DNA of 64,000 nt from assembly GCF_964355755.1 (NCBI RefSeq), contig NC_092677.1, forward strand, positions 13,600,601-13,664,600, in the 5' to 3' direction. The DNA is from Antedon mediterranea (lineage: Eukaryota > Echinodermata > Crinoidea > Comatulida > Antedonidae). Numbering within the stretch: the stretch's first letter is position 1; each line of letters starts with the position of its first letter. The position numbers and the translations under genes are program-made. Below, in pieces: positions 9,464 to 56,435 of the stretch. Below the pieces are notes generated by a model. The model saw nothing but the letters and a program-made list of their open reading frames with translations. It did not search any database and was not told the origin of the DNA.

Positions 9464-12400
9464 TCAATCACGCCATGTTACTTCAACTTCATCTGTTCTG
9501 TACCTGCAAGCAATGTTGAGAGGTGACTCCTTATTATAAGGTAATGTTAAAATAATACTAGTATAAAGTCTTCAGTTTCAGTTGTTGGGCATGTTGAGTA
9601 AGATAGGGAGCTTTTCATTTGCGACAATCTACGACATGTCACCGGTTATTGTCTGGACCTAGAAACCATCAGAACTGTGTCAAGGTGGGGAAGCGAGGAA
9701 ATGCATCGAAATATCCCGCATGTGCACAGTGGATTAACGTACAGCGGTCTTCGCAAAGTATAATTCATGGAGAAGGAACATTCATTCGGCAACAGGCAAT
9801 AATTAAACAGTTTTATAATGGACATCAATTTACCTTTGTGTACAAAATGTCTCTTTTATTGGTGTTGTTATTCCACTCACAAACATCTCCCAGCCAGCCT
9901 GGGCAATCATTGCACCATTGTCGATACAAAACCTTTAAAAAAACAATACAATTTGAAAAATATTATTTACTGTTTTATTTATTCCTCCCTCGAATAAATG
10001 CGCCCATAGAACATCATTTTGAATCGAGAGCCTCTCACATGCTAGTCCGATATTCCTTATTATATAACACCAAAATAAATTCCTCTCTAGGTCTAGGCCT
10101 GATATGATAATGAGTAATATAAAAACGTTTTGTACGGTACCTCATATCTGTTGCAAATAGCTTAGCACCTCGCTCTTCAGCCATAATTCCCATCATTTCT
10201 TGTAAACGTTTGTTACCTAAAAGCAAAAAAAATTGTAATAAAACAAGTTTTTCGGTAATATGAGGGGCAGCAAAGCCAACTTGGAAGGCATCAAAGCTAT
10301 TAAATAAAATTATTGACGAACTTATTTATATTTTTGCCATTCGGTGGTTTTATTGTGAAAATTCAAGGGCACTCTGGCCAACCATGATTGTTGTTTTGTT
10401 TTGGTGAATACAGTAAAATTAGAAATAAAAACAACATACATCCCACTCCACCAACTATGAGGACCTCCTTCGATCCACAGTGGGCCATGGCTCGTTCTGT
10501 TACCTCAACCAACATTGCAAACAGTGTCTCCTAAAATTAAAAGATAAAATGTGGTGAATTGATCCCTTTGCTCAGCTAAGAACGAAGCTATACTGGGATT
10601 TGATGTAGGTAAAACATCGGAGCCAAAAAGTGGAAAAAAAAACGCATTTACAATTTAAAAGAAAACAGGAAAAACAAGGGCGAGTGAGTGGCAAAGCGGT
10701 TAAGACAATGGAATCATAATTCTGAGTTCTAGGCAAGGGTTTTAGGCTCACTCGCTCTATGGTTCTGGTTGTAGAACAGTCTTCTCGGATAAGGACTATA
10801 AACCATTAAAGACTCGAGATGAGTAGGGGGTTGCGCCAGTGTACTAGTACATTACAGCCACTGATCATAACTGGGCCCTTTGGTTCTTTGACTGAAGAGG
10901 TCACCCAGTATAAATAAATAACAAAAAAGCATTAAAACTGGTATTGTGTTTTGTACAATTTCGACGGTCTATTATACTTCAAGACTACTACTCTACCTAG
11001 ATTACCTAATACGTAAATATACAAAACAATATTGAATAGAATGGTAAAAATAATACCTGAAGTGAAAAGCAGAGATCACCTGGTGTACATTCACCACTTT
11101 TTAACAGCTTACGACCAACATCCTATTAAACAGACAAAAAAGGCTAACCTTTAAACCCTTTGAGAAACAGAAACCGTTTTATTTGTTTCATACTTTTCAC
11201 AATGTTATCAAGAAGCATACTTAAATAAAGTGATTTTTTGTGGTATAAGAGCTTTCAATTTTCAATGGCCTAGCACGTAGGAACGTCATATTAATGCTTC
11301 ATTCCCACTAGACGCATGACGGAAAGTGCAATGGAAGTAATTTGACCGATCACAAGAGATGGATTTTTGGAATTGGTCAATGCACTTTGTCGTTGCGTTG
11401 CGTTCTAGTAGGAACACCGAGACCATGCTTGTTCACTAGATTCTTAGACTATGATTCTAGGTCGAGACGGCGACTAACGACATGTTATGCGTCTACATAG
11501 CTTGTCACATATCAAAATCTCATCTACTGTACTGGAATCTTTATAAAAAAATAACAGTGAGTTGTTTTTATGCAGGAGTCCTGATTTTTATGGTGATAAG
11601 AGGACATTAAATAAATTAATTACAAACCTCAATGTGTGATAGAATTCCTGAAAATGATACGTCCATTCCCTTGGTGACATATGGCAGCTCAATCAACTTC
11701 TTTCCCCTACAAAAAAAAATGTATTACTATGAGGTGTATTTACTTACATCTGCAATCTCCTCATCTCCAAAATGCATCAATAACTCAAGTTCAGTGGAAA
11801 TGTAACAATAAATTTATGGAGAAATATGCAGTCTGTGTGAGCTTAAGCTCTGTCTACACTATCAAACGACTTCAGACAAAAAAAAGTGCCCAAATATGGT
11901 AGTAATATGACATCAGCGTGTCCATATATGGGCACATCACACTTTTTTGTCAAATCAAGTTTGATAGTGTAGACAGAGCTTAAGTTTAAACAAAACAAAA
12001 CTACTTACTCTTTTGCTTTTTGTTCAATGTTGTATCCAGGACTAGGATCATTTGATAGCTATAAAATAAAATAAAAAAGTTCAAAACCATTCATGGTTTT
12101 ACTCACTATCGACTTTACTGATCATTGTAAAAATTAGATTATGTCATGTTAGAAGAACATACCAATCCATCGCAATGTAATGTGATACTAACAACACAAT
12201 GGATAATTTATCTCCTCATGCACAGGAAAGATAAAGTGTCAGAGGAAATCCTACATAATAATTATAATATGTAATAAAATGCCATGATAAGCCTGACTAA
12301 CCTTAAGTATGCGAGCAAACCTGTCAAGACAGTTGCCTACTGCAATATCAATAGTTTCACCGAATATTCTATACTTCTTCTGAGAATATGCAATAACCTG

Positions 12401-15400
12401 TAAAGAATAGAAGGGTTAATTGTACAATTGTATTATATCATTATTGGTTAATTTCATTCATATTTGAGAGAGTAAAAATTGCGCTAATTTACCGACCAAC
12501 GCCCATCAAATTCAGTGCATTACAGGGTTTCTGTTTAATAACGTACACAAAATGTTGCTGTGTTGTGTCAGTTCACTGTAGGATTTTCATTTACACTATC
12601 ATTACCTATTGCTTTTTTTTTTTTTTTTTTTAACCATATTTAATGAGGGTGATCCATCCAGCTATTGCTGATCATTAGGGACCCTCAGAGGTTCACAAGA
12701 CAAACATATACACAAGATGCTCTAAACAAAGTCTTATTACAAGTCTTTGGGAGTGGAGAATTTGGTCCTTAGAAAAAATCCTGGACTTGAACCCAGGACC
12801 CTTGGAGTGGTAGCCAAGCATCATAACCACCAAGCCACAGCTCATCCATATCATCATGTGAGCGACCAAGTTGATTATAACAAGGTGGTTGAACTTGTTG
12901 TACGCAGGCCTATACATTATCTACTGTATACACTGCTGAAAAATTTAATTGTTGGATACAAAATTCATGGAAAAGAACCACCCAATATAAATAATTTGCA
13001 CACTGATTATTTTTTCCAATTTCTCTAGCCATCCCATGGCCATAAAAAATGTTTTGCAGCCCAGTTTTCAGAATGTTGATTTTTCCGACAAAGTTTGCTT
13101 TTAAATACCTGTGTATTTCCTCCACTAACATACAGTACTGTTGGATTTTGAGCATTTGTTATGAGGCGTCCCATCTCGATGTCTAACAAGTTTATTAAAG
13201 AATACACTGTATAGGGCTGCTTTACAAATATAGTTCATATATATTATTGCCAAGGAATCATTACTTAGTAATTATCTGTATATTATTCTTCGCAAGGTAA
13301 GGTGAACGCAAAGCCTTACTAGGCAGGCTTATTTACATAAAGAAGGCCTAGCAACCTGATTCTACTGGCAGTGGTTGTTGGCTATATAATATAACAGATA
13401 TCAACTTTTATATCGGTAATACCCCATGAAATGATATTCTGCTCTCGAGAAGATATATTTCCCTCAGCTTCATATATAAAATCTTTAACCAATTCTTATA
13501 ACATATCTATATGTACACCTAAAAGGCCTTCTGAACTAATAGGGGAAAATGAAAATATATAAAAGGATACGTCCAATACAGTGATTAACACCAATTATTG
13601 GTTTATTCCATAGTTGGGCCACAGTTCTTGCAACCAGAGCTACCGACACCAATGGCGCTCCCATACCTGGACCTGTATAAAAAAAAAAAACGAAAAATTA
13701 AATCCTCTTTCAAACAGACAGTGCAATTGAGCACAGAGTAGAGCCTGCCATTATAGACTAAACACACTACATGTTGGTATTTCAACCGCCACTCAGCCTT
13801 ACATTGCACAAAATTCTCAACATCTTTACAAAGATAGTGGAGCTGTAACTTGGTGGTTAATATGCTTGCCTTCTCCAACTCTTTCAACTTCACTCCCTAA
13901 GCCTCAAATGAGACTTGGGTTATAAGAACAATCAATTAGAAAATAGATTATCCATCCTGCAATTGGCGAGTTGGTTTTTAAATTTTAAACAAATACCTTT
14001 TGTGTATGCTATACAGTCAATCTCTCGAGGCGAAATGTTTGCTTCATCTAACGCCCTATAAAAATAAAAATTGAAACTAATGTAACACTCTGACCATCTA
14101 GTCAACAACACATTCTGTTACTCTAGCTATTCAAATTGCTAGTGGTTTCTTCCTGTCGTTAAATACTCTTTATTCCTTTTCCTATAACCCATATCCTTAA
14201 TCAATCACTATTTCCTTATCAAAGAGGTTTCCTTATTTAAATATTTCCTTCAAAGTAAATGCATATTAATACAATTTTTCCATAACATACATTAAATATG
14301 TTTGTACTGGCAAGGAGAAGATGGACATTTAATTTAAGACTTTAATTATACTGTAGTCCCATACTTGATTCTAAAGATTAGTTTACTGTATGTATGAACA
14401 CATAGGTTGTTAAACATAGTATTGTTAAATACATAAACATAACAGATCTGAATACATAGAATATAAATATTAGAAAGATGCAATACTTTTGTAAAACTTC
14501 TAGTACATGAGCTTGATGATGTCTGGCAGTATCCCTTGGTTGAAAACCTACAGTAAGAAGATGAAACAGATTTTAGTAAAACTGTCGAGAATTTATATTA
14601 CAGTGGAGCCTCTATTAATGGGACACCTTTAGGACCCAAACAAAGTGTCACCTTGGTAGGTATCACAAAGGAATTGTTCTTCTGTATTTTCCAATTGTGA
14701 TGGGTGGGAGGGGACTGGTATCATAGGATATTATACTTTGTATCACATGGTGCAGTTATACCACAGGGTGGGATTAAGCCACAGGGTGGGATTAAGCCAC
14801 AGGGTGGGATTAAATCTGTATCAATGATGCATTCTCAGATGAAGCTTGCCTGGAATATGGTGTACCACAGGGGTCAGTAATTGGGCCTGGCCAGTTTTCC
14901 ATTTATACGCTTCCCCTTGGTGACATTATTCGCAAACACAGTCTACATTTCCATTTCTATGCAGATGATACACAGATTTATGTGTCAGTAAATCCAGTGC
15001 AAAGGGATGTTGCTGCAGCAATCAGTAAGATGGAAGCCTGTATAGAAGATGTTCGCAATTGGATGACAACAAATTACCTAAAGTTGAATGATGGAAAGAC
15101 AGAGTTTATTATCGTCGGGTCTAAATGTAACATCTCCAAAATCAACATCACACATATCAGAATCGGAAACTCTAACATCGCTCCCTCATCGGTGGTCCGG
15201 AATCTGGGAATCATGCTGGATAGTAATCTCACTATGGAAGCACAAATAACAACTGTATCCAAAGCAGCATGCATATCGATTAGGAACCTTGGTCGTATTC
15301 GCGGTAATCTTAACAAGAAAACAGCTGAATTGATTGTACACTCATTTGTCACTTCTAAAATTGACATTGGTAATGCCTTGTTGTTTGGCATACCAAAATC

Positions 15401-17383
15401 TCAAATGGATACAACGTTTGCAGCGCTTGCAAAATATGGCAGCTAGAATTGTAACTTATACAAAATCAAACGCTCACATAACTCCTGTCCTGATGGATTT
15501 GCATTGGTTGCCTGTTCAACAACGTATTAAGTACAAACTTGCGTTGTTTGTATTCAAGATCCTAAATGACAGTGCTCCTGCTTATTTATCTGACCTTGTG
15601 GATCTTTACGAATCATCCCGCAGAGGCCTACGATCATTGTCACAAAACCTTCTTCAAGAGCGTAGAGCGAAAAATCAGTGGGGTCAGAGATCTTTTTACG
15701 TTGCGGCCGCAAGTGTATGGAACAGCTTACCAGCAACAGTTAAATGCTCAACTAGTCTAAACAGTTTCAAGACCAACCTAAAGACGTCGCTATTCGCTGA
15801 TGTTCTCGCACGTTGTTAATGCACAAAGCGCCATGAGCGCCACATGGGTGGAGGATACCGGCGTTATATAAGTTTTCATTTATTATTATTAAACCAGAGG
15901 GTGGAATTAAACCAGAGGATGGAGTTAAACCACAGGGTGGGATTAAACTAAAGGGTGGAGTTTTACCACAGGGTGGGATTAAACCAGAGGGTGAAGTTAT
16001 ACCACAGGGTGGGATTAAACCAGAGGGTGGAGTTATACCACAGGGTGGGATTAAACCAGAGGGTGAAGTTATACCACAGGGTGGGATTAAACCACAGGGT
16101 GGAGTTATACCACCGGGTGGGGTTAAACCAGAGGGTGGAGTTATACCACAGGGTGGGATTAAGCCACAGGGTGGGATTAAACCAGAGGGTGGAATTAAAC
16201 CAGAGGATGGAGTTAAACCACAGGGTGGGATTAAACCAAAGGGTGGAGTTTTACCACAGGGTGGGATTAAACCAGAGGGTGGAGTTATACCACAGGTTAA
16301 ACCAGAGGGTGGAGTTATACCACAGGGTGGGATTAAACCAGAGGGTGAAGTTATACCACAGGGTGGGATTAAACCAGAGGGTGGAGTTATACCACAGGGT
16401 GGGATTAAACCAGAGAGTGGAGTTATACCACATGGTGGGATTAAACCAGAGGGTGGAGTTATACCACATGGTGGGATTAAACCAGAGGGTGGAGTTATAC
16501 CACAGGGTGGGATTAAACCAGAGGGTGAAGTTATACCACAGGGTGGGATTAAACCAGAGGGTGGAGTTATACCACAGGGTGGGATTAAACCAGAGAGTGG
16601 AGTTATACCACAGGGTGGGATTAAACCAGAGGGTGAAGTTATACCACAGGGTGGGATTAAACCAGAGGGTGGAGTTATACCACAGGGTGGGATTAAACCA
16701 GAGGGTGAAGTTATACCACAGGGTGGGATTAAACCACAGGGTGGAGTTATACCACAGGGTGGGGTTAAACCAGAGGGTGAAGTTATACCACAGGGCGGGA
16801 TTAAACCACAGGGTGGAGTTAAACCACAGGGTGGAGTTAAACCACAGGGTGGGATTAAACCAGAGGGTGGAGTTATACCAGAGGGTGGGATTAAACCAGA
16901 GGGTGGAGTTATACCACAGGGTGGGATTAAACCAGAGGGTGGAGTTATACCAGAGGGTGGGATTAAACCAGAGGGTGGAGTTATACCAGAGGGTGGGATT
17001 AAACCAGAGGGTGGAGTTATACCAGAGGGTGGGATTAAACCGGAGGGTGGAGTTATACCAGAGGGTGGGATTAAACCAGAGGGTGGAGTTAAACCAGAGG
17101 GTGGAGTTATACCACAGGGTGGGATTAAACCAGAGGGTGGAGTTAAACCAGAGGGTGGGATTAAACCACAGGATAGGATTTCCTTAGGTGACATTTTCAG
17201 TATCATATAACTCTTTCATCTACAATTCATTTAAGTGTAATCATTTTCTGAAATGCACATTGACATACCTTCACCTGGTGGAGTGATATAGGTTACCCTG
17301 GGATTCGACAACACCTCTCCATCACGAATTATCCCGATTCCAAGCTTGTTGGCACTCCCTTCAAACCCAATGACCGTTGGCAT
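9464..17383 (-). CDS. OSGEP: tRNA N6-adenosine threonylcarbamoyltransferase OSGEP/KAE1
   Basis: Catalytic subunit of the KEOPS complex, which transfers threonylcarbamoyl to A37 of ANN-decoding tRNAs to make t6A. Coding exons (minus): 17383-17269, 14547-14487, 14055-13997, 13672-13571, 13182-13109, 12397-12302, 12058-12009, 11706-11628, 11122-11057, 10530-10440, 10216-10141, 9932-9834, 9503-9464. All borders are GT-AG, phases join without a break, and the product is 335 residues, the human length. Visible motifs: start [13 protein letters not shown], metal-binding His109 and His113 in VNHCIGHIEMGR, substrate loop [21 protein letters not shown], and Asp294 in FCIDNGAM; it ends VEVTWRD then TGA. 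The first coding exon has a 3' splice site just before its ATG, so a 5' noncoding exon lies upstream, probably near 19100-19210. Intron 1 carries a large minisatellite and a LINE fragment. Confidence 0.96.
10680..10925 (+). repeat. tRNA-derived SINE, family 1
   Basis: In an OSGEP intron. A-box-like GTGGCAAAGCGGTTAAGAC and B-box-like region before CTCACTCGCTC, then the shared body TCTTCTCGGATAAGGACTAT. Looks derived from a Ser/Leu-type tRNA. Other copies: 21021, 28895 and 37630. Confidence 0.8.
11291..11425. mobile_element. short inverted-repeat element (GGTTCCCACTAG family), degraded
   Basis: Left end ATTCCCACTAGACGCATGAC and right end GCGTTGCGTTCTAGTAGGAA are imperfect reverse complements, with the shared core word AATTTGACCGATCACAAGAG. 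TTAA precedes the left end; the right end has decayed. Confidence 0.65.
11843..11983. mobile_element. MITE with TTAA flanks (GCTCTGTCTACACTATCAAA family)
   Basis: Near-palindromic 133-bp element at 11847-11979 in an OSGEP intron. The ends read GCTCTGTCTACACTATCAAA and its reverse complement, flanked on both sides by TTAA (11843-11846, 11980-11983). No coding capacity. A sister copy is at 51061-51199 and a decayed one at 53568-53705. Confidence 0.85.
12609..12870 (-). repeat. tRNA-derived SINE with poly(A) tail
   Basis: On the minus strand, GCTGTGGCTTGGTGGTTATG (A-box side) is followed by a B-box GGTTCAAGTCC, a body and a poly(A) tail (T run on plus, about 12609-12632). It sits in the OSGEP intron between the exons at 12397-12302 and 13182-13109. 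Related tRNA-like heads occur near 13840 and 36545. Confidence 0.7.
14597..14815. repeat. GGACACC-type dispersed repeat leading into the minisatellite
   Basis: TCTATTAATGGGACACCTTT followed by AAACAAAGTGTCACC matches the repeat family also seen at 21418 and 24130. It runs directly into three units of the 18-bp minisatellite (GGGTGGGATTAAGCCACA) before the LINE insertion. Confidence 0.6.
14816..15893 (+). pseudogene. 5'-truncated LINE (CR1/L2-like) RT fragment inserted in a minisatellite
   Basis: Reads the second half of a non-[14 protein letters not shown], then the catalytic box FYADDTQIY near 14955, then the thumb with [14 protein letters not shown] and [11 protein letters not shown] frameshift near 15405 moves the rest into another frame ([42 protein letters not shown]), ending at a stop near 15818. 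A short 3' UTR ends in ATTATTATT repeats, the tail style of CR1/L2 LINEs. The 5' half is missing. The same minisatellite lies on both sides, so the LINE landed inside it. Confidence 0.85.
15894..17172. repeat. 18-bp minisatellite, about 70 units, in OSGEP intron 1
   Basis: Unit GGGTGGGATTAAACCAGA alternates with GGGTGGAGTTATACCACA, giving a 36-bp higher-order dimer over much of the array. The left part is split off by the LINE at 14816-15893. The unit length is a multiple of three and lacks stops, so long false ORFs appear on both strands; neither is a gene. Confidence 0.95.
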
Positions 17384-17399
17384 GATGATCAGTCTGAAA

Positions 17400-18700
17400 A
17401 CAGTTAAAAATATTAAATATACATACCTAGTTACTATATCATGACCTATGAACTTAAGTTCGGTTGTTTGCACTCACGGTTAAAATCTGGTCATAAAATG
17501 ACCAATAAACATTCCAACCTCCAAGCTTACAATTTGGGGAGGTTTAACATATTTGACGCATTTTGACTTTAAAAAAATACCTCCTGCAATCAGCATTCAA
17601 TGTTTACCAGATGCCCCCTGCATTCTAGCAATTACTGTTTGTATTAAATACAGAAATAACCTTGTGAAAAAAACAGGTTGAAAAATATTTTTATCTGAAA
17701 GATGAAAAATGATGAAAATTTGGGAGTACTGATGAGAACTCAACTTTATGATGTACATATTAATATTCATCAATGCATAAAACCAGGATTGTGTATAGGG
17801 TAGTAGGCAGTTTAAATATAAAATAATAACTAGTGGTATAGGTCACAGTGCATTTCACCTGCCAGTCATTTCGCCCGTCAGTTATGAAGAACAAAGGGAA
17901 AAATATGTCATGTTCATTTCAGCTGCCAACTATATGGCGCATCAATAACCAAAAATAGGATAGCCTACTACTATCTCAAAGAATTACACAAATATTGTGT
18001 AATCGAGGAAACTATCTTGGCAGATAACCTCATATCATCTCATTTTGTGGTGGGGGTATAGGGAGTAACAAATACTCAATGACTATAGACATCGAACTGC
18101 ACGTGTCGCACGCTGACTGAGCCTGGGGATTTCCCTTTTATAACATGACGTGACATTGTGTAATGGTGACGTTTTTTATTCCTAACTAAAAATACACAAG
18201 TGTGTTTAAAGGAAGTAGTGCGAAGCGTAGTCCTATTATGATGTATCCGTCGGCAAAATGAGATCGGTTTATCGAGTACTGTATCGCATCATACTTTTTT
18301 TAACATAAAGATCAAACCTGTCTGTTTGAGTTTACTAGTGCAAGTACCAGCCGCCGATTCCTATTCGGCTTAAATATTAATAAAAATATAACATTTTGGC
18401 ACACATGGAGTGTCATGCATATTCAACACTATTTATAATTCTGCCGTCCTTGTTATATATAGGCCTATTGTGAAAATAAAGTTGGTGAACTTTATAGTCA
18501 TTGATATCTGTTCCTACTCAGACATTTGAAGACATTTTGAAGAAAAATTGATACGTACTATCGGCCTAGCATTCATTGAGATATAAATGTAGGCATGTTA
18601 TAAAATAAAACAAATAATGAATGTTTTGTATTCATTGAATGGTGAAAACTACTACTCTTTTTTCAACATAAAATATTCTGACCTTCCAACTCTAGCCTAG
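17400..18700. other. OSGEP intron 1, unassigned part
   Basis: AT-rich sequence with no ORF or repeat that I can place. It lies between the first coding exon of OSGEP and the GGCCTAG field. Confidence 0.4.
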
Positions 18701-19015
18701 CCTACTCATAAATATTCATTATTTGTATAATCTATATACCAAATACACATACTAGCCTAGCCTAGCTAGGCCAATCTAGGGCTGCTACGCTAGCGGCTAG
18801 GCCTCAGCCTAAAATAAACCTAGCCGAGGCCTAGCTAGGCTAGGCCTAGTTATATACTAGGCCTAGGCTAGCTAGCATCCTACTAGGCCTAGGCTAGCTA
18901 GCATCCTACTTGGCCTAGCTAGGCTAGCCTAGCCCTACTAGGCCTAGGCCTGGCTGGCCCTAGCTAGCTAGGCCTAGGCTAGCTAGGCTAGTTCTAGACT
19001 AGGCTAGTACTGTAT
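18700..19015. repeat. GGCCTAG palindromic field
   Basis: Dense overlapping words CTAGGCCTAG, GCTAGGCTAG and CTAGCTAGGC, all self-complementary or nearly so, without a fixed period. Similar fields are at 19590-20100, 59760-60170 and 62975-63240. Confidence 0.85.
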
Positions 19016-19114
19016 AGTAACTGCAAGCCTTCTTTTCTAACACGGACTAATAATAGTGTAATGTACGTTGTGTGTATTATTAATTATTTTACCTTACAAA
19101 AGAAAATATTAATA

Positions 19115-20185: not shown

Positions 20186-23100
20186 ATGTTTTACTCGCAC
20201 AATATCTTGCAAAAAAAAGGAGGAAGATTTGGGAAAATTTGGTAAGAGAGTATGGTGGTAGGAAGAGAGGAGGTATTTTAGTACTAAAGTAGTAGGCCTA
20301 AAACAATATGGGTATGGGTGGAGAATATAATAATAGTACAGTAATAATTATAATACAGGTAATATAATAATGATGTATGTTGTATGCATTAGTCCTATGC
20401 TAAAATATAATCTCATTTTTTTCATTTAGGCTAAATTTTGCCACAAGATTTTGGCAAATAAATTCCATTGTTAATGCAATCCAAGTATACTTTACCCTAG
20501 TTTTCACCAAATTTTATACTCAGGGATCTCTGGCACTATACTTGGTCATATACACTACAATGGATGAGATAAAATACACAATACACACCCTCCTACCCTA
20601 AAGATGTATTTATTTATAGCCGACTTCCAAATTGTCCCTGATCCTGACCCCAATACTCATTTTGCCTACTGTATTTTATTATTGTCATTCCTGATGATGA
20701 TCCACATGTCATTTAATCATGACTGTGTTTTATCCTATTGTAATCCGTGCATTAATTAGTTTTATTGTTAATGTTATTCCTGTCATTTTTGCTTTGCCAT
20801 ATTAGGATTGCTGCGACCAGATCATCAAAGCTCACGAAGCGCGAGTATGTGACGATCAACGTAGCTAATACCTGGTAACTCTTCATTTTAATACTCAATT
20901 CATTTTGTAGTGAAATAAACTAGGTAACAAATATCGGACCCTAATTAGAAATTGATTACTGGCCGGGAAAATAGATGGGCTAAGCTATTGGCTCTTTCTC
21001 CAAGCAGCATTTAACATGTTGAGCGAGTGAGTGGCCGAGCGGTTAAGACAGTGGAACCGTAATTACGTAGCCATAACATCGGCAAGGGTTCGAGGCTCAC
21101 TCGCTCCATGGTTCTGGTGGTAGAACGAGTCTTCTCGGATAAGGACTATAAACCGTAGGTCCAGTGTACACATAGCTCATGCACACTTTAAAGAACCTAG
21201 TACATCTTTCGAGACGAGTAGGGGGTTACCCCGGTGTACTAGTCCACACAAACACAGTCACTGTCACACGCAGCCACTGTGCCTATTAAACTAACTCACT
21301 CGCACCACAACCCACCAAAGTGCTATAGTCTACAAGTTTGAAGTTTGCACTAAATTGGAAGAAGAAGAAGAAGATGTTTATTACTGCATTGTACTCTGAA
21401 AATGAATACAGTAGAAGCCCTATATAAAGAGGACACCTTTGAGACCCAACAAAGTGTCCCCTTAATAGGGGTAGGTGTCCACTTAATTGCAATTGCTGCA
21501 GTATTAAAACATTTTACCTCATAAGTTTCACGGTACGTGTACTCTTAATAAGGGTGTCCTGAATAGGTGTTGTCCCCTTGACAGGAGTTGTCCTGTGAAT
21601 AGGGGTTGTCCCCTGAACAGGGTTCGTCCTGTGAACAGGGGTTTTCCTGTGAATAGGGGTTGTCCCTTGAATAGGGGTATCCCAAAGGAGGGGTGGAAGG
21701 TAAGGAAGATTATGAATATTACAGTTCCTATGACAATATAAAAATATACAATGTATTCTTCTCCTTTTTTTCAGTCAAGATATTATCAATTGCCTCCAGC
21801 TACAAGTTGAACCACGCCTTTCCCTTTACCTGTCATCGCAGCTTATGTTTGGTGTTGTTAGAGTATTTTATAAACAATGCGAATACCTTACCAGTAAGTG
21901 TAGTATACAATTGATAAAATATGAAACAAAATTATTAACCTAGTTATTAAGGATGCTTTTGATTTCAACAAACTAAGGCATAGGAATTATGTAAATTTTG
22001 CATTACGACATTTTTCGTTCAGTTGATTTCCCTTTTCCACGATGACAATACACCCAAATAAAGGTCTGTGAAGTAGAACTCAGGTCGTCACCTGGACATA
22101 TCAAACAAATTGGTACAGATAACTGGAAAAAATTGCCAAATCAAACTCGCGGTATGCAAATGGTACCTCCATATGACGTTATGTCTCATGGAAATCTAAA
22201 GCTCTCTATTTTGAGTTAGTTAGATTCGGTGATGCACTGAATGTGTAGAGCATTGTATACCTCTCCCTGGATCCCACCGGAATCATGACTCTCATCTTTA
22301 GTAACACCGGGTTGAAGATGAGCTTAACTTTCTATTAAAATGTAGTCATTATGACGAAATACATTCCAAAGTATATAATAATCTAAAGAGTGTCATAACA
22401 CTAACTACTGATAACAATATAAACTTTTTAAACATAATCGGCTCCACTGAATACGAAGTCATGTTGCCGGCAACCAGATTCGTACAGGACGCGTTTATTC
22501 TACGAATGGAGTTTGGACTATAATTAAAAGTATAATCATAATTGTTTGCCTTTTTTTAGATGAGTTGATATATGTGAACAACCGGATAGGTTCAAGAATA
22601 AATATCGCCGACAGCATAGATATAGGCATCTCAAGGTTAGAAATCATTTTTAATTTATGCAAGGACATGTGGGGCAGTGTGTTAGATGTTGGCTCGCATT
22701 GCTTCTATCCTTAGTCAAGACACTTTATTTAGGTGTACAAATATGTATCTGGTATTAGGTCAAGACACAATGTTGTGCTGATTACTAGCTGCATACGTGT
22801 TTGCTCCAAAAATGACCAGGATAATAATACATACAGCACTTAGTGGTTTTACAACATTAGGTACTTTATAAATCCAGGATTTATTATTATTATAGATTAC
22901 AAATTTGATTTATAAAGTATGCCTCAACAGAGGGTGCATGAGAAGAAAACATACAGACGGCGACAATATGCTATGTACTGTACTGTTTGAAGCAAACCAC
23001 CTCCTACCCAGTCTGTAAATTTCTTCCTTTCCTTTATTATGAATAAACAGGGAAAGGCACACAATTCCTGAAGGTAGCAGGGATCAAACATTCGGAAATT

Positions 23101-26100
23101 TACAACATATTTCACTACCAATCACCATCCCTGAACAGGTATAGCTCATTATCATTATTATCACTTTATCATGACTACAGTATGAGCAGGAAAGAATGGT
23201 ACAGTGCATATTGGCCGCCGTTCATTCAATTCAGCCACCATCACTAAAGAAAATGCGAGTAAATTATAAAAGTTATACATTTTGGCGACCGAAATGATAT
23301 CAGATAGAAGATTTGGTATTAAAAATAAGTAAATTTGGCCGAAGTGAGAAATTCATAAAAAAAAAGGTCTGGGCTCTCGAAAAATACCATACGCAAAAGA
23401 TAGAACAAGGAACATCAGGTTTATCACTTTTACGATTTTTAGGCCATGGACCTCCAAATGGATCAGTCACTGATGGCTGGATATGGCACTAACAAAATAC
23501 CTTTGAAAGGGTGGAAATATGATAGTTATTAAGGATATTATACAATAGAGTAGGCCTAAAGAAATAATTCTTATCTATGATTTTTACATATATTCATATA
23601 TTCCATACATTATTTTGTGTACATACTGTAGGATATTCTGCTTCCCAGTGCTACATCTACTGATGAGAGTCCAGGTAGAAGACAGCCGGATGCTATTCCA
23701 CCTCACCTGTCGCCTCCAGACTTGATAACGTTGAGAGAGGATGTCTCCGATATGGAGACTATCCAAGTAATTATGTTCACTTTTTTTAGTAGATGGAAGT
23801 ACCGTTAAATATATCAGAATGAATCGTAGTGCTTGCTTGTAGATAAGCTTGTTAATATTATTTTAAAGTTGGTAATGTTGTTTTACAGGTTCCAGTAGAA
23901 GAGGAAATAGCCCAGGATCCGGCTTTCGCAGAAGTGATGCATCAAGTGACGGCAGCAATTAACAGACTAGAAACCGATGAGGAGAGAGAGTAAATAAATA
24001 ATTTTTTATTACCATGTTTTTTGATGATTGATTGGTGTTTTATAATATATAATATATCAATATATTGATAAAATATAAAACACACATGAATATTTAAATA
24101 TTCAATGACAAAGGATAATAATATAGATGATCCTAGGGGACACCCAACAAAAAGTCCCCTTAATAGGGATGTCCCTGAACTCCATATAGACTGAAGGATG
24201 CCCAATTGATTGACAAAAATATTGTCCAACATTACAGTTTCACAGGAAAATTCTACTGTAACTATATATTCTGGCCTACATTAAAAGTTAAAATGTTTTA
24301 AATTGTTTGTTCCATAAAAGTTAAAAAGAACTGCAGGTTTAATAAATTTTGACTTAAGCACTTCTCTATCTTGACTTTAAGCAATAAATGCCAGTCCTTG
24401 TGGGGTTTTTGTTCATGGAGTGCCACAGCCTATTACCTTATTAGTTTATTTATATAACGTCGTTTGTTGATGTTTGATAATGCAATGATTTCTATTATAG
24501 AGAAGGCATCATGCTTGTCGAAGAAGAAACCGGACAATTGTCCCTTTCTCGTGATCATCAAAGAAAAACCAGGGACCGAAAAAGAAAGAGAGGACTACCA
24601 GAACCAGAACCCATTCTACCACCAGATGACGTTGTGCATTCACCAAATTTCCCGAGTGTAAACGAAATTGCATCTATTACAGACGACATACCGTTAAGGG
24701 TCACACAGTTGGATGATATAGAGCAGATTGTCCCTAGGCCACCACCTGAAGAAACACCTCGGACTGATAAGGTTAGTTGAATAAATTGGGACAATATGCT
24801 AAACTTTAAATCTGTCCCTAACATGGAAAATAAAATTATAAATTAGAATATCTAAAACCAAGCAGCTGGTGTGGCTTGCATTAATATTCAGAAAGACTCA
24901 AACACTCAAAGACTTAAACAATGCGCTCCGAGAAAAATGATCTGTATAGATCTATCAGATGTAGAACCGCAAGATATAAAGATCCTTTGTTACTTACTAT
25001 ACTTATGCTCACTATGTCGGTCGGTTGGTAAACACCAACTCAAATTTGTGAACGCGACTGCAGCCATGTATTTCTTTGGATAGAGTTATTAAATAATGAA
25101 TAAACATTTTTTTCTAAAAATGTTTCATTTCAATAGGCTGTGGCACCTCCTAATTTGGAACTGTCTCCAATTGTCGAGATTATTCCTCCAGTGGTACGAA
25201 GACGGAAGAGGAGTCTGTTTGTGGACCAGGAGACCCAGCTGCATAAGACAGACATGAGGCATAACATGGCCACATCAGGTGACCTATGTAAAAAGAATGA
25301 TGTAAGATATTATACTGTATATTGGCATCATTTGGCTTAAAGATGTATTGTTCCCCTGAAAAATAATTTTTTCCAATTTTTTTTTTTTTAATATGCCATT
25401 TTATTGTCACATAATAGTTATTCACTTTGACCAAAATTTGGATCTAAAAACAATTTATTTACCTGAAAAAACTGTAATTTAAAGCAAAAAGTGGTCAAAT
25501 TGGCTGCGTGCCAGTCAATGGATTTTTGGTTGAATTTAGCCATTTATTAGGTTATTTTATAAGTGAAAACATTATTTTTTGGGTGTTTTTTTTTCTACGG
25601 AAGTGATTAACTTTATTTATTTATAACAAAGTCTGATTTAATTAATCTTCATTTCATTTTTCATGTTTTTGGGGACCAATACATCTTTAACTACTTCTAG
25701 TAGTTAAATGTTACCATTATTACACCCAAATAAATAAACATCCTCACCCCCCAAAAACCCTCCTGAAAAATAAGTTCCAGAGCGTTTATTTGAATAAATA
25801 CAGTATGCAATTTATTCTAGGATTGTACTATGTTTTGATCCTACACATACTTATCCATTGCAATAATTCATTTTTCATTGTTTCCATAGATAATATCAAT
25901 ACCAAAACATCCAAGTGCCAGAGAGCTGTTCAATCTTCCAACTAGAGTTGGTAAGTCCTGAATGTCAAAACTCAGGGGTGTTCTAGTGTCGGCCCTATTT
26001 TTTGCTAATTCGGTACAGTAACTTTTATATGTATATATTTATTGTGATTTTTTGCCTTGCCTTTTTCTTGTAATTGTATTTGAAGTTTCCATTTTTATAT

Positions 26101-41800: not shown

Positions 41801-41932
41801 TTTTTTTTTTCCAGAGATCTATATCGTTGCACACGCCATTCAAATCAAGGAGATCTTCTACCAATAAGCCACCCCGACACATTGACTGACCCTCCCTCTG
41901 AGGGAGAGGGTCAAGAATTCACTGGACAGTAA
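32850..41932 (+). CDS. METTL17: METTL17, mitochondrial ribosome small-subunit assembly factor
   Basis: Rsm22-family methyltransferase-like protein that binds the assembling mitochondrial small ribosomal subunit in the matrix. Exons: 32850-32972, 33962-34112, 36376-36507, 36976-37078, 37437-37518, 37993-38066, 39048-39213, 39920-40159, 40599-40770, 40990-41110, 41815-41932. In-frame total 493 residues (human 456). Exon 1 encodes a basic presequence (MAASCIKDMTYFS to RLSRLNLFKKY to NRYSTA), as expected for import. Motif I of the SAM fold is LDFGSG at 211-216. Other landmarks are HRKHPGIL, YMCIDIS and SAFSLLDLPTKSERI. The iron-sulphur-type cysteines are C358, C364 and C377 or C379, plus HVICNLCC at 431-438. 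It ends near KDLYRCTRHSNQGDLLP, matching the family C-terminus. The intron after exon 9 has a GC donor. Exon 1 is the least certain; the rest is firm. Confidence 0.94.
33488..33860. mobile_element. decayed AGATGTATTG-family MITE
   Basis: Inside METTL17 intron 1. Shares body words with the 25341 and 43333 copies (TTGTTGAATATGCCATT, AATAGTTATTTTATTCAC, AATGGCATATTCAAAGTCTG). Ends are eroded. Confidence 0.65.
34890..36055 (-). mobile_element. SINE family 2, split by a minisatellite grown inside it
   Basis: Minus-strand tRNA-derived SINE. The tRNA-like head (GGTGCAGTGTGTTGGACT, B box GGTTCGAATCC) is at 36050-35990 and the body (TGGGTACC) is near 35920. After a 900-bp minisatellite, the remaining body (ATTATGGGAGTATGTTTCC) and tail are at 34998-34890. 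The 47228 copy shows the uninterrupted order. Located in METTL17 intron 2. Confidence 0.8.
34995..35900. repeat. 21-bp minisatellite, about 43 units, in METTL17 intron 2
   Basis: Unit AATGCAGCTAGTAATCAATT plus T, with one main variable base (GCAGCT versus GCAGTT). The array is otherwise almost error-free. The period is seven codons and has no stops in several frames, so ORFs of 345, 321 and 302 codons arise on both strands; none is a gene. The unit matches a segment of the surrounding SINE. Confidence 0.95.
36056..36136 (+). pseudogene. duplicated 3' part of METTL17 exon 2 with its donor
   Basis: From about 36062, AAATGTCGCAATGTACAATT to TTTTATTAGCAAGTATGT is a near copy of the end of exon 2 (about 34050-34118), including the 5' splice site. 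The reading is KCRNVQLAVSLQEL where the true exon has KCRNVQLPVSLQES, and it keeps the same phase. The exon's 5' half (FVHRKHPGIL) is not present. It is 1.9 kb downstream in intron 2, just past the SINE. Probably unused, though a cryptic acceptor (ATAATTAG at about 36053) precedes it. Confidence 0.8.
36545..36670 (+). repeat. tRNA-like SINE head fragment
   Basis: TAGCTTTGTGGTTAATCTGC followed by CAGGGTTCAATCCTGACC resembles A and B boxes. The GGTTCAATCCTG part is repeated three times (36606, 36630, 36660). In METTL17 intron 3. Confidence 0.55.
37105..37270 (-). repeat. SINE family 2, fragment with a single satellite precursor unit
   Basis: METTL17 intron 4. On plus: CCCATATTTATGCAGCTAGTAATCAG split over 37168-37193, then TACCACCAAGTACCTATTTA and GGGTGGAGAGAGGCC. 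It carries the satellite precursor segment once, unexpanded. Confidence 0.7.
37630..37945 (+). repeat. tRNA-derived SINE, family 1
   Basis: METTL17 intron 5. GGTTAAGACAGGCGCTTC, B-box-like GGTTCGAGTCACC, then AAGTCTTCTCGGATAAGGAC and a body partly repeated at 37785-37810. Confidence 0.75.
39666..39697. repeat. (ATA)n microsatellite
   Basis: About ten AAT/ATA units in METTL17 intron 7, next to a TTCGGAAAACGC-like LINE tail word. Confidence 0.85.
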
Positions 41933-43676: not shown

Positions 43677-43679
43677 AGT

Positions 43680-45050
43680 TATTTGGATATTAAGTAGTAA
43701 AAGAACTGCCAAAAGTGATTAGGTTTAATTTAAAATCGAAGACAACATAAGGTAAATTCACATCATCTACCATGCGCTGCCAGGCTAGTTATTGTAAATT
43801 CTATTTTAATTCTTAACCTGTTTCTGGTAGAAAATATAAATTAAATTTTAAATTGGAACATGTTGATTAACAATTCTATGTCATAAAACCCTACCTAATG
43901 CTATCAGGCATGCAGTAGGATAGTATGACCTTACATAACCTTAAAAGAGCATGCCACCCTGCAGATAGCTACAAATACGCACATCTATAAACATTATTTG
44001 TAACATGCATTAACATATTTAAAGCACCTATATAACGACACATTGACAATGTCTTCAAAAACTAAATAATGGTTAAAATAAATGTGTAAAAATTAAATGA
44101 CAACAATGTTAATAATGAAAACACTCAATAACATAACTAAATAATGTTAATATTAAATGACAATATAATAATGCAATACGTAAATATTAATTCTCAACAA
44201 CACATCTAAATAATATTAATATCAAATGATAAAATGTTAATAATGTAATAAGTAAAATTACTTCTCAATAAAGTAATTATAGTTGAAATAATGGTTAATA
44301 TTCAAATAAAAGTTGTTTAAAATATGCAAATTGCTCATATATAACGTAACTAAACAAAATAACTAAATAATATGAAAACACAACTGTTAATAAATTCAAT
44401 ATGTAAAACTTGACTTCATAATTTTGAAACAATGATAATAACGAACATTGTAACTTGTTAATAATGTTGAATTAGTATAATACCATCAACTCTCTCAATA
44501 CTGAACTGTCTGAAAACTGGAAACTCTCCCCAAACCAGACTTTTTAGATGTCCAAAAGGTCCCAAAGTATTTTTTCCATTAAAAACACATTTTGAATACC
44601 ACAAAATCAGACATATTAGGCTAGCCAAAGGGTGTTCAGTATTGGTAAAGTTGACTGTACTGTATCTCTTAAAAATGTAACAAATTATTGATAAATTTAA
44701 TAATGGTTTAAAAAATCCAATAAGTAATTCTAGGCAACAACCAGGGGCGGATCCAGGACAGGGGAGCACTAATAACACATAATATATAGTCTATAAAAAA
44801 TAAGGTATCAAAAAGTAGTTTATAATTTCATTTTCTCTGTCAATAACAGGAATGTGTGCCCCAAGCGCAACCTTCCTGGATCCGTCCGTGAAAACATGGC
44901 TTTCTCAGGAAGCATGCTTTTGACGCACCACTATAAAATGGCCTACCAACACCCTTACACTAGATTTTCTTTACCAATAAAATTTCTATACAACTTGTGT
45001 TTTCGCATGTTTTACTATATCTATATTCAAGCACGTTGGACGTTTTGTGT
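43680..45050. other. AT-rich intergenic DNA, no gene recognised
   Basis: Holds a loosely repeated motif (AATAACATAACTAAATAATG and variants) at about 44100-44420 and chance ORFs. It includes the 3' UTR of the gene at 45051-49304; no canonical minus-strand AATAAA was found close by. Confidence 0.4.
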
Positions 45051-48000
45051 TTAGGACGTCTGCATAGCCTTGTTGTCGCGGTAAATCACAAGTTCATGTA
45101 TGGTGGCCGCATGCTTGATTAGTTGCCAGGCTGTATGGGTGATTTCATCACAAATGCTGCACTGCCAGTCATCGGGTTCTACAAATATTTAAAAAAAATA
45201 TTTACAGTTACAAAATATTAAAGAACTGAATTTTTAAATCCCACGTTGCTCGTCCACTATTAAGAAAGATTTGTTTATTGGTACGGGTCAAGTACTTACC
45301 ATCAACTTCATCTTTCTTTCTTTTGGCAGGTGGTCCTGGGGTCGGGTGGATAGGGAGTAAATTTGGGTCTACATAGCCACTAAAAAATACAAAAACAAAA
45401 TATAAAGTTCAATTTACAGTCGAGCGGTAGCGGTAAGCGAAAAAAAATGCGTAGCTTCTCCCACGCAATGAGAAAAAGTAAATTACACACAAAGACACAA
45501 ACCCATGTTATTTTTATATTAAGTATTTTTTTGGTTTACATTAGGACATGTTACAATATAGCATTTCAGCATGTGTACTCGGCTTTTGTGGGGGAACGGC
45601 ATGTTACAATATAGCATTTGATCATACGTGTATTTAGCTTCATCCTGCACTCTCTTGAATCCTTTAGGTCGTTCTCGGTCTGGTTCATTTGCGATGTGTA
45701 AATCTGCATAAAAAAAATATTATTGAACAAATTTTATATTTCTTATTAGATATCTTGAGATTTTGAAACTCACCCTTGTATATATTTATAAACCAGAAAC
45801 TACACCCAATACAAAATAGCATCAGCAATTCAGTACACCTCTTTTGCAAACTATGTATAGTTCTTGCCTTCAGCACTAATGCTTGGTTCCCACTAGAGAT
45901 GCAACACAAGAACGTATCGCACCGTAAGTGATTTTACCAATCACGGACGATGCATTATTAAAACAGTCATTGGTCAACTCACTTGTGTTGTATCTACTTC
46001 CTTACGTTGCATCTCTAGTGGGAACCAAGATTAATTATTGAACGTCTTGTTCAAAGAATGTGGTTGGCAACAAGAGTTAAAATACCTGGCTTGAACCCAT
46101 GCCTTTCTATCCACAGGTCAGCTTCCTACTACAGGATTATCTTGCTGACTGAGTTAATCTAATAAAAGAAAAGCATTTCTTTACAACATACCTAAAGGCT
46201 GGCTTGCAAGGATGCGGCCATGTTCTTTTCGTTTCGCATCCATAGCATCTTCTGGCTTGCAGAACTGCACAAAGCCAAAGCCTTTGTGTAATGATATTCC
46301 TGTGATCTTGCCATACTGGCTGAATATGTGCTCAACATTTTGTCTTGTTACAAGGCCAGTGTTAAGGTTGCCAATGAATAACCGAGAAGCGAGGTCATTG
46401 GGATGTGTGCTGTTGGTCAGGTTGCCAGGCGAGTTACGGTCAATAATATTCTGTAATGCTCCCATCATACCTCCTAGCCGTCCAATGCCATTACTGAGAG
46501 AGAAGTATATTCATGTAAGAACTGTCAGTACTACAAAATACTTAACGAGCGAGGGAATCTATTAAAGTAGTTTTGCCCAACTCTTGATTTAAGTGAACAC
46601 ATTTTGCATGTTGACCTTTGTTTCCAGGTCAAGTGTTCAGAATATTTGGCACAAATATTTTAGTTAGACAAAACATCTGGCTATTGCATTTTATGTTATT
46701 GCATTAGCCACTTGAGTTAAAAGTATATGAATGGTACTATCTAGTCTACTGAAACTACTTCTAATATTAATTGTTTTTAACCAATAAACAGCTTACAGAT
46801 ATGCATTTATTCACATCAAGAATGTGCTCTTACCTGCATGTTTAAAACATTTCACAGGGCCCGGGTAAAAAAAAACTTTAAAACAATTTATTATTTCAAA
46901 ATAAAACAATAAAAGCATTGTGTTAATTAAACTAAATTTAATTTGGGGAAGAATTCTGGTTTAGGCAAATTTTCTGGTTTTTAGATAGTGGACTAATTTG
47001 GAATTGTGATCATTTTATTGAATTTACTTTTTTATTTTTTGGACATGGTCAACCCACAGTCTATTTAACCCAATTCTATATCAAAATTACCTAAACATTT
47101 TAATTAACTTGAGGGATTCTATGATGTAGAATAAGTAATAACGTAACTTCACAAATAACTTAATGCAAATCAGCGAAAACCATGAGCAGGTCTTGTATCT
47201 TTCAAAGACACCTCTAATTATGTACCAAAACATGAGGGCATGTAGCGCAGTGTGTTGTACACTGATACTGATCTTGAGATCGTGGGTTGGAATCCAATGC
47301 TCATTGCATTGCTTGCAAGATAATTAACTTCAGATTGCCTCTCTCCACCCAGGTGTACAAATGGGTACCTGGTAAGGTCAAGACACAACTTTGTGCCGAT
47401 TATTAGCTGCATTATGGCAGTATGTTTCCATATGTGTTTAATAATAGGTACAGTGCTTTATAAATCTTTATAAAAGAAATTGCTGAGATTGAGATATATG
47501 CAATATTTTGTTCCTTTATGAGAATTGCCAAAAACCTTAAAATCTGATTACCCTAGTTGTGTAAATATCTGAATCAGACTCCGGAAAAACAGCATCATAT
47601 TGTATGAACAGCATTAAAATGAATTTCATAACATTTCTTTTTTGAAAGAGCCATAGCGTAAAAAATGGAGTACTTATTCCGATGACGTCATGACCAGGCT
47701 GCTTGTCAACAAGCAGTCAAGTCAGTTGATAAAGATCTATGATAGAGTTTGAAACGTTTGAGAAAGTACTCAGTTTTTTTTACACTATAGCTCTTTTATA
47801 GTATTATAATGATTAATGCACGAGTTCTTCACTCACAAATATTTCATATTTTATTACTAATGAGACTGCATAATTTCTTTCATTGGCATTTCTCACATAG
47901 GACAAAAAATATGGCGACATGTTTGGTTTAAAACTTACTACTGTTCCATTTGAACTTCAGGTTCTGGAGTCCTATTAGAAATGTTGAAACTAATATGTAA

Positions 48001-49304: not shown

Positions 49305-49319
49305 CCTGTTTATAATATA

Positions 49320-53263: not shown

Positions 53264-56200
53264 TTATGTTGGTATTGGCTTCTCCATAAAGATTTGAATA
53301 TCATGGGTTTTGTGGGCATGCTTAATTAATTGCCAGGCTGTTTGAACCTTGACCTTGCAGATACTGCACTGCCATTCAGGTGGTTCTGCATGAGGAAGAA
53401 AACATGAATTGGTCTCCAAAATAAAAAAAATAATTTATAGAAATATATTGATTATTGATATTTTAGCCAAATTCTACTATGCAAATTGTTGAATTCACAA
53501 AAAGCAAAAATGTCCTTACAGTTGTGAATCGGTAAGTTGGAAAAATTGGTAAGGTAAGTAAACTAAAGCTCAGACTACACTATCAAACTTTACTATCAAA
53601 ATGTGATGGACACAATGACATCATATCACTACTATATTTAGGCACATCCTTTTGTAAAACTATTTTGTAAAACTATTTTGATAGTGGAACAGAAAACAGA
53701 GCTAACATTTTCCATGAAATTGACACATTCACAGATTTTGTTTAACAAGTAGACAGAAATAGTCCGCATACGATTACTTAGGTTTGTGTTTCCGCCAAAA
53801 ATTCCACGTACAGTATTTCAGCAAGCCTCATTATAATCTAAATTTTTTACTTCTTATTTACAAAATATGTTTGACACAAATGGGGTCATTTGCTAAGACG
53901 ATTTTGTTTTGCATTTACAACGGTGCATAGTAGAAAAAGCATTTTGTGTTAAAAGATATTTTTTGAAAATGTGGAAAATTGTATAAAAAATACTGCAGTT
54001 TGTAACAACATCTATTCTCCAAACAGATGGACAACAGACATTCTTTCAAATACAAATAAAAGTCTTCATTAAATTTACATTATATTAGTTATAAAAAAAA
54101 TCTCTTAGAAAAAGACCTAAATAAGCGGTAATAAATTATGAAAAAAATGAAAAAAAAAAAAGATAAAAAAATGACTACCTCCTGAAAATCAAAGACATTA
54201 AAATACATACCGTCTGCTTCTTTTTTGTCTTCGATTACAATATTTGTGGAATCATTAAACCTTTTCATCCTCTTTCTTGTTGGCTGATTGCCATTTGCCC
54301 CACTACAGGGTTGTACTGGGAGTTGATGTGGGTCCACATACCCACTATATAAAAAATCAGTGCCGAAAAAAAAAATATAGGAAGATGGTTAAGACATTTG
54401 TTCAACCGTACATACAGTACTGTAGCTGCACCTGCGCAAATAGAAACCTGGCGTGGAAAACGTATTGTACTTGGTATCAGCCCCTGGCATGGCTCAAGGT
54501 GGTATATTAACACCTGGCAACATGGCAAAGTATGTTGTATGGTATGACAGAGGTGCTCAATGTGGGACAGTATTACAACATCTGATATGACAAAGGTGTT
54601 GTACAACAACACCTGTCATGGCAAAGTGTGTTAGTTGGTAACACAACACTTGGTATGACAAAGGTGCTCAATGTGGGACAGTATTACAACACCTGATATG
54701 ACAAAGGTGTTGTACAACACCTGGCATGGCAAATTGTGTTAGTTGGCAACAACACTTGGCATGACAAAATGCTTAATGTGGGACTGTTTGCAACACCACG
54801 GCAAAGGTAGTCAATGTGGCACAATATTACAACACCTGATATGACAAAGGTGCTAAATGTGGAACAGCATTAAAGCACCTGTGTTGTACAACACCTGAAA
54901 TGGTAAAGTGTGTTAGTTGGTAACAACACCTGACATGACAACGTTGTTTAATGTGGCATAGTACAGTATTACAACCGACAATGTTCATGAAAAAATGTTG
55001 ACATACTGTAAAAAAGTCACCTAGAAAAAGTATAATAAAAGATCTAATTGATAAATGAAGATGGATATGATTTTTAACCAACATTTCACTGCTATAGTGA
55101 TGAATACATGGTCATAGATGTCAATTTATATTGTCCGCCATTTTAAGATGTTCAGTCCTAAAATTTTATTTTTTTTAAAGTTTAACTTGTTTTTTTCCAC
55201 GATTTCAACTGGCTGATTATATCGAAGAGGAACAACTTATTTTGCGACTTTATTAATGTGAATCAAATAGGAACTGAAAAATATATAGCAGTCAATTTTT
55301 CAGGTAGAAAGTCTTAAATTACCTAAATGATTCTCCCTGAATCTTTCTAAATCCTTTTGGTCGATTCTTGTCTGGATCACTTGCTATTCGAAGATCTAGT
55401 GAGATAAATAGCAATAATTTAAATAGGGCACAACAAACATGTTTGGCATGTATACATTTGTACAGTATCAAAGATATTTATTGGCACAACGCAGAGGCCT
55501 GGTGTAGGGACACTAAAAGTGATGGCTTTTTATTCCTCCTGGGCCCTGTTCAGGGGCCCCTTAATCCCTAATACGCCACTGAAGACATTACAGGATAGAC
55601 TAAATAGGAATTACACTAACAGTTTTCTGCACGCCAGTTCATTTGGCTGAATGGTACTGTATAGACTTGTTGAACTGGAACTATCGGTTTATCACATTTA
55701 GAGGGTTAGGTTAAATTGGGAAATATTGTGTATCTTGCAGGCAATCTCTCTGAGAAAGTCTTTGGGGAAAAAATCAGCCTGGTAGTTAGCTTTGAAGAAG
55801 CTGTTTGTAAAAAAAAGAAGACTGTAATTTTACAATCATTAAATTAAACCCGCATCGTCTGTAGTGTAAGAATCTTATTTCAAATTCTTATAAGATAATA
55901 CTTAATGTTAAAAGAACATTACAAAATAATGCTTACTCAATTGTTTAAGTGCCATAACCCTGCCTTGTTAAAGGGACATTACACAATAATGCTTACCTAA
56001 TGGTTGAGATGCCATAACCCTGCCTTGTTCTTCATTCACAGCCTTTATAGCACTATTTTCATTGTTGTACTGAACAAATCCAAAACCATTGTGTAGGGAA
56101 ATGCCTAAAATCTGTCCATATTTACCAAAGGCATGTTGAATATCAGGCCTCTTAACAACTCCAGTGTTCAGATTTCCAAGAAAAACTCTCGACGCCTTTG

Positions 56201-56435
56201 ATTTGGGATCATTACTGTTGGTTATGTTGTTTCCTCCAAATTGACCACCTATGCCACCTATGCCGCCAATACCACCCGCTGCTCCACCTCCCCCTCCCAT
56301 CATTCCTGCACCCCCATAATTGTGCATTGGTCCTGGACCATGCCCCATGCCGTAGCCTCCATTGTATCCACCCATGTTACCATAATGGCCGCCGTGATGG
56401 GCACCATGGCCACCACTGTATCCTCCACGATTCAT
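53264..56435 (-). CDS. hnRNP C/RALY-type RRM plus C2H2 zinc finger protein, paralogue B
   Basis: Coding exons (minus): 56435-55997, 55395-55323, 54344-54211, 53385-53264; 255 residues with clean phases. Residues 1-70 are Gly/His/Tyr/Met-rich (GGYNGGYGMGHG, GGIGGIGGIGG), a likely disordered region typical of hnRNPs. The RRM follows, with RNP2 VFLGNL at 84-89, RNP1 NGFGFVQY at 116-123 and the RRM-end DLRIASDPDKNRPKGF. Next come SGYVDPHQLPVQP and a basic signal TRKRMKR at 193-199. The C-terminal finger CSICKVKVQTAWQLIK with H238 and H243 is C-x2-C-x12-H-x4-H. After the RRM the intron phases (1, 2, 1) are the same as in paralogue A, so the two arose by gene duplication. The finger shares TAWQLIKHA with A. 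A 3' splice site four bases before the ATG implies an upstream noncoding exon, perhaps near 63400. Confidence 0.92.
53568..53705. mobile_element. decayed GCTCTGTCTACACTATCAAA-family MITE
   Basis: AAAGCTCAGACTACACTATC at the left and GATAGTGGAACAGAAAACAG at the right. In the last intron of paralogue B. Confidence 0.65.
54490..54980. repeat. tandem repeat, about 110-bp unit, 4 copies
   Basis: Units contain TGACAAAGGTGCTCAATGTG, then GGGACAGTATTACAACACCT, then GGCAAAGTGTGTTAGTTGGT. Starts near 54541, 54651 and 54757, with later units deleted in part. In the intron of paralogue B between 54344 and 55323. Confidence 0.8.
55907..56029 (-). repeat. 60-bp tandem duplication carrying the RRM-exon donor
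   Basis: Lines up at exactly 60 bases: GCCATAACCCTGCCTTGTT occurs at 55951 and 56011, and ATAATGCTTAC at 55926 and 55986. The right copy holds the true end of the RRM exon and its donor. The left copy is intronic and keeps a second good donor (TTGA/GTAAGC). Confidence 0.9.

Follow-up and report, generated by a model that had tools for sequence, protein, structure and literature searches.

The window analyzed here, a stretch of 64,000 nucleotides from Antedon mediterranea, covers C8:13,600,601-13,664,600. At 28.58 of 354.43 Mb, contig C8 makes up 8.1% of a genome in 18 contigs. The window is AT-rich, and its genes are cut into many exons. Within 47 kb of it (positions 9464-56435) lie members of four families: OSGEP, REC8, METTL17, and an RRM family of hnRNP C/RALY type. 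A sequence-only reading of this DNA had placed OSGEP, REC8, METTL17, and hnRNP C-type genes in this interval, and all four identities and places were borne out by spliced alignment, Pfam, and PDB searches. A tRNA scan and an Rfam scan of the whole window returned no match, and a search of the genome for COX1 was likewise without a hit. Near its left end, the window carries retroelement coding fragments (1915-2909 and 7608-8245) that, named from reading, resemble integrase and reverse transcriptase.

OSGEP, the gene for the KEOPS subunit KAE1, occupies 9464..17383 on the minus strand. Using human OSGEP as the query, spliced alignment recovered the full length of the protein in 13 exons, with 263 of 335 residues identical. 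Coding exons 1 to 7 lie at 17269-17383, 14487-14547, 13997-14055, 13571-13672, 13109-13182, 12302-12397, and 12009-12058, and exons 8 to 13 at 11628-11706, 11057-11122, 10440-10530, 10141-10216, 9834-9932, and 9467-9503 plus the stop. The top PDB match of the resulting model was chain 6gwj_K (E = 2.8e-186), and Pfam TsaD was matched at 2.4e-82. The model scored 408.1 bits against the archaeal/eukaryotic NCBIfam family arch_KAE1, above its cut-off of 375, versus 207.5 bits against the bacterial family TsaD_YgjD, below its cut-off of 296.1. Judged by these scores, the gene in the window is a full-length OSGEP of the KAE1 type, nearer to KEOPS than to bacterial or mitochondrial TsaD. A second TsaD gene, on contig C1, was considered as the true OSGEP and rejected, since the window gene is full length and of the KAE1 type; by elimination alone, the C1 gene is a candidate OSGEPL1. 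Within intron 1 of OSGEP are open frames that resemble reverse transcriptase (14814-15816; named from reading) and an array of 35.8 copies of a 36-bp unit (15889-17172).

The next gene, a REC8-type kleisin, spans 20186..30631 on the plus strand. It is divergent from OSGEP, with coding starts 2.8 kb apart (17383-20186), and it is possible that the two genes have a common promoter region. Spliced alignment gave reliable exons at 20186-20241, 20806-20874, 21807-21893, 29846-29947, and 30552-30631 and a likely one at 25137-25316 (plus strand); the middle of the gene model is poor and uncertain. Once joined, the exons matched the N-terminal (PF04825, 1.7e-20) and C-terminal (PF04824, 3.4e-14) Rad21/Rec8 families of Pfam. 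The spliced score of the whole gene was 383 against REC8 versus 246 against RAD21, and that of the N-terminal part alone was 203 versus 126. A PDB search returned seven matches, none of them named REC8, the nearest being RAD21 (2.3e-9). The other kleisin gene that we found, on contig C1, is RAD21, with 99 of 117 residues identical to human RAD21. We rejected RAD21 as the identity of the window kleisin because the spliced scores favor REC8 and a separate RAD21 resides on C1; by these comparisons the gene is REC8.

METTL17, encoding a mitochondrial ribosome assembly factor of the Rsm22 family, follows at 34028..41908 on the plus strand. Spliced alignment to human METTL17 spread over 14 exons, some very short ones being doubtful, with 164 of 403 residues identical; the alignment found no counterpart of the human protein upstream of residue 49. 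The Rsm22 domain (PF09243) was matched at 7.4e-58. In the PDB search, METTL17 itself came first (3e-93) and the next match was far weaker (1.5e-16). A search of the whole genome found this as the sole gene of the Rsm22 family. An N-terminal exon segment of METTL17 (CRNVQLPVSLQES.TVLLASM, 33962-34153) has a similar copy 2 kb downstream (35904-36131), which is probably a partial exon duplication. Between the two copies is a 21-bp unit repeated 43 times (34993-35899).

The remaining family comprises three RRM genes in a cluster, all with C-terminal parts that are treated below. Gene A (45048..46468, minus strand; splice sites and phases assigned by eye, start codon taken at 46468) has exons at 46192-46468 (RRM), 45628-45703, 45300-45379 (a linker with GYVDP), and 45048-45178 (C2H2 finger and stop); a further 5' exon upstream is possible. 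Gene B (53264..56435, minus strand; start codon taken at 56435) encodes 255 amino acids in exons at 55997-56435 (Gly-rich N terminus and RRM), 55323-55395, 54211-54344 (GYVDP linker), and 53264-53385 (C2H2 finger and stop). Gene C lies 17 to 20 kb past the window end, at C8:13,684.7-13,681.5 kb. The sequence-only reading counted two RRM genes; with gene C, outside the window, there are three. The stretch between genes B and C carries a long open frame for a LINE-type reverse transcriptase and, in addition, two GPCR-like frames of one exon each (L007 2783-6163, L007 6553-7449, and L008 2-817; named from reading). To the right of gene C is a single-exon sulfotransferase-like open frame (C8:13694398-13695240), likewise named from reading.

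Comparison with structures placed the RRMs of all three genes with HNRNPC and RALY. The RRM of gene B matched Pfam RRM_1 at 8.1e-10, and its leading PDB matches were RALY (1.4e-28) and HNRNPC (6.7e-28), with the next family at 7.4e-9. For gene A the order was HNRNPC (3.9e-25), RALY (6.7e-25), and the next family (1.7e-13), and for gene C it was RALY (3.4e-26), HNRNPC (5.9e-26), and the next family (5e-17). Chains of RALY and HNRNPC took ranks 1 to 3 for A, B, and C, and 9 to 20 orders of magnitude in E value separated the best of them from the next family. When protein B was searched against the whole genome at E ≤ 0.001, all seven matches fell inside the RRM cluster. By PDB ranking, the three RRMs group with HNRNPC/RALY, as had been proposed for the RRM genes, and not outside that clade. 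The proposal had also leaned on linkage as support for this kinship; the kinship is evident from the sequences themselves, and linkage adds little to it.

hnRNP C binds U-rich RNA and forms tetramers. A, B, and C all retain its RNP motifs (VFIGNL and KGFAFVQY in the PDB alignment of gene B) with conservative changes, so the binding of U-rich RNA would be the likeliest activity of the three proteins.

We asked where other genes of the corresponding human region lie. Human OSGEP, METTL17, and HNRNPC are at 14q11.2, with REC8 at the 14q11.2-q12 border, and SUPT16H, a copy of EMC8/9, PRMT5, and DAD1 belong to 14q11.2-q12 as well. All four of the latter markers, which were all those searched outside the window, were on C8: SUPT16H at 27.43 Mb, EMC8/9 at 9.31 Mb, PRMT5 at 7.36 Mb, and DAD1 at 11.28 Mb. 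None of four comparison genes, whose human positions are outside 14q11.2-q12, was on C8 (RAD21 and the second TsaD gene are on C1, BCL11 on C10, and EIF2S1 on C11). These four positive and four comparison genes were picked by hand or came up incidentally. Human EIF2S1 is at 14q23 and one human BCL11 copy at 14q32; the EMC8/9 and RRM families have further human copies on other chromosomes. With four of four extra markers on C8 and none of the comparison genes, the claim that the window genes come from a linkage group matching human 14q11.2-q12 is supported. The same cannot be said of the accompanying claim that the linkage is "kept much tighter here than in human." On C8 the other markers range over about 20 Mb (7.4 to 27.4 Mb), which means that gene order on this contig is scrambled, and a tight run can arise by intrachromosomal reshuffling. 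As linkage it is unremarkable: macrosynteny is conserved and gene order is not.

Past the near flanks, the 40 kb on each side contained at least one gene with a clear human counterpart among the open frames listed, and it is of the PPP1R16 type. This ankyrin gene lies about 17 kb to the left of the window (C8:13572477-13583577) and has 140 of 270 residues identical to PPP1R16B, some short pieces of the alignment being doubtful. The human PPP1R16 copies are at 8q24 and 20q11, on arms that also carry RALYL and RALY, which is what duplication of a single linkage group in vertebrates would predict.

Such an arrangement most likely came about in a simple way. Since exchange between chromosomes is rare, genes remain on one chromosome, while inversions within it change their order. 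Four genes of one linkage group can then adjoin without a conserved cluster or common regulation, and tandem duplication has given the RRM member its three copies. It could instead be argued that the 47-kb cluster of OSGEP, REC8, METTL17, and hnRNPC is an ancestral micro-block, kept by selection (e.g., on common regulatory DNA) and dispersed in vertebrates. The four families do sit side by side, OSGEP and REC8 diverge over the short distance given above, and the strands of the four (OSGEP minus, REC8 plus, METTL17 plus, and hnRNPC minus) match the human pattern, a weak hint given that chance alone would produce it about 1 time in 8. However, an intact block fits poorly with a contig on which the other 14q11 markers are strewn over 20 Mb and order has generally been lost. 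In human, moreover, some 3 Mb and many intervening genes separate REC8 from the rest of the four. A literature search of partial coverage found no paper on micro-linkage of OSGEP, REC8, METTL17, and hnRNPC. We regard a selected micro-block as unlikely and favor shuffling within a conserved linkage group.

The RRM genes have a feature that the sequence-only reading missed. In A, B, and C, the last exon, 3' of the RRM and on the same strand, encodes a single C2H2 finger. The finger maps to 45051..45179 in gene A and to 53267..53386 in gene B (both on the minus strand), where it reads EP..W.C..C......AW.L.KHA...H...I. With splice sites assigned by eye, the RRM exon of each gene has the first base of an Asp codon as its last base, the finger exon starts at a phase-1 junction that completes a Glu codon before Pro, and adjoining exons agree in phase and keep the frame. 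The GYVDP linker exon occurs in A and B but not in C; in A it is only 121 bases away from the finger exon. In each case the stop comes 5 to 7 codons past the finger motif, and no further C2H2 fingers follow. The fingers of A, B, and C have 12 invariant columns in common, which argues for selection since the duplications.

Profile and structure searches were less specific about the finger. Pfam matched the fingers to zf-C2H2 only below the cut-off. An AlphaFold2 model of the gene B finger, built with the three finger sequences, had two short strands followed by a helix (mean pLDDT, 82.4). Foldseek returned 180 matches at E ≤ 10, the best at 0.61, and it assigns no finger family because none reached E ≤ 0.001; C2H2 fingers were among the best 50 of the 180, with a structure of BCL11A fingers 4 to 6 at rank 2. 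When the gene B linker and finger were compared with PDB sequences, all matches were weak, BCL11A chains leading the list (E = 0.065).

Could the finger exons be remnants of separate zinc-finger genes that do not belong to the RRM genes? The joining was read from genomic sequence rather than from transcripts, and the fingers fall short of the Pfam cut-off, both of which leave some room for this explanation. Remnants would nevertheless have to show the same arrangement, strand, phase-1 junction, and open frame with an early stop in three tandem copies, and in gene A they would have to begin just 121 bases after the linker exon. We consider this very improbable. A related candidate, in which the lone finger exon at 53267 is a separate BCL11-like gene, was rejected because A and C have the same exon in the same phase. 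The reading that we retain is that RRM and finger exons would be transcribed as one mRNA, whose finger is predicted to bind zinc and might give the RRM protein a second contact with nucleic acid or protein.

With this ending, the RRM genes are not plain orthologues of HNRNPC in architecture. About 100 residues or fewer follow the RRM in the gene models, made up of a short linker and the C2H2 finger. The genes end in a BCL11-type finger and leave no room for the oligomerization and acidic regions of HNRNPC; by inspection, neither the coiled coil (zipper) nor the acidic region of vertebrate HNRNPC/RALY was found in the models. Human HNRNPC and RALY, for their part, are not known to have a zinc finger. 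Lacking the oligomerization region, the three proteins would not be expected to form tetramers like those of hnRNP C.

The closest relative of the finger was found on another contig. Searching the genome with human BCL11A finger 1 recovered this genome's own BCL11 on C10 (2.4e-10), followed by the fingers of B (2.8e-4), C (0.0024), and A (0.079); there were six matches in all, the remaining two at E values of 1.15 and 2.6. The reverse search, with finger B at E ≤ 10, hit four places, namely, itself, A, C, and BCL11 (0.028). By these reciprocal searches, BCL11 finger 1 is the sole related finger found outside the RRM cluster. Excluding the four zinc ligands, the fingers of the RRM genes and BCL11 have 9 to 11 of 31 residues in common, and none of 20,000 shuffles reached any of the observed scores. 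Since the shuffle keeps the ligands only and takes no account of the wider C2H2 pattern, the ranking across the genome carries more weight, with the proviso that the search tool scores its best candidates only. As read by eye, the BCL11 finger exon in this genome also has an apparent phase-1 start, three codons further upstream than in the RRM genes. Common descent of the RRM-gene finger and BCL11 finger 1, perhaps by way of exon transfer, is likely, though judged from only 35 residues.

It is tempting to extend this kinship back in time. An ancestral animal hnRNP C/RALY protein could have carried a C-terminal finger of BCL11 finger 1 origin, exchanged as a phase-1 terminal exon, which vertebrate HNRNPC, RALY, and RALYL would have lost and replaced with oligomerization and acidic regions. 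We offer this tentatively and think it somewhat less probable than its negation. If true, the mRNP packaging function of the vertebrate proteins would be a derived state. A literature search, partial in coverage and including few subscription journals, found no description of an RRM-plus-finger protein; should such proteins be widespread in invertebrates, the view of how vertebrate hnRNP C arose would change.

Considering these results together, we think it very likely that the window belongs to a chromosome descended from the ancestral animal chromosome behind human 14q11.2-q12, with its order shuffled and its RRM member tandemly triplicated with a BCL11-type finger. We infer descent from one ancestral chromosome with human as the sole point of comparison. 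That these neighbors merely happen to be on one human chromosome might be suspected of only four genes picked after the fact, yet all four markers outside the window are on C8, an outcome with a chance of 0.081^4, or about 4e-5, by contig share of the genome, and pure coincidence is scarcely credible.

Simakov et al. 2020 (PMC7269912) describe 17 chordate linkage groups whose genes have stayed linked while their order has for the most part been scrambled, and the same source traces chordate and other animal chromosomes to some 17 to 19 ancestral linkage groups, again with order scrambled. C8 resembles these ancestral chordate and bilaterian groups, as outlined there, in its chromosome-scale linkage and scrambled order, and it differs in scale, the case comprising eight marker genes in one genome. 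It adds one more case of chromosome-scale conservation, and the 14q11 markers provide a small, checkable anchor set for matching C8 with one of the ancestral groups.

Genes A, B, and C resemble HNRNPC and RALY in the signature of the RRM (GNLNT and H.GF.FVQ, then a segment like L-D-I-x-A). In contrast to HNRNPC and RALY, they form three tandem copies and encode a short protein (255 amino acids in B), with a C-terminal C2H2 finger where the human proteins have coiled-coil and acidic regions. A table in PMC12108566 pairs Drosophila CG42458 with RALY, which would make it, like A to C, an invertebrate member of the RALY family. With finger 1 of BCL11A and BCL11B, the RRM genes have in common the pattern EP....C..C....SAW.L..HA...H...IY and, judging by eye from the BCL11 gene of this genome, a phase-1 junction shortly upstream. 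Going by PDB titles, BCL11A fingers 4 to 6 are seen in DNA-complex structures. Unlike BCL11A and BCL11B, the RRM genes carry a single finger together with an RRM and none of the other BCL11 fingers, and they thereby show finger 1 of BCL11A in another setting.
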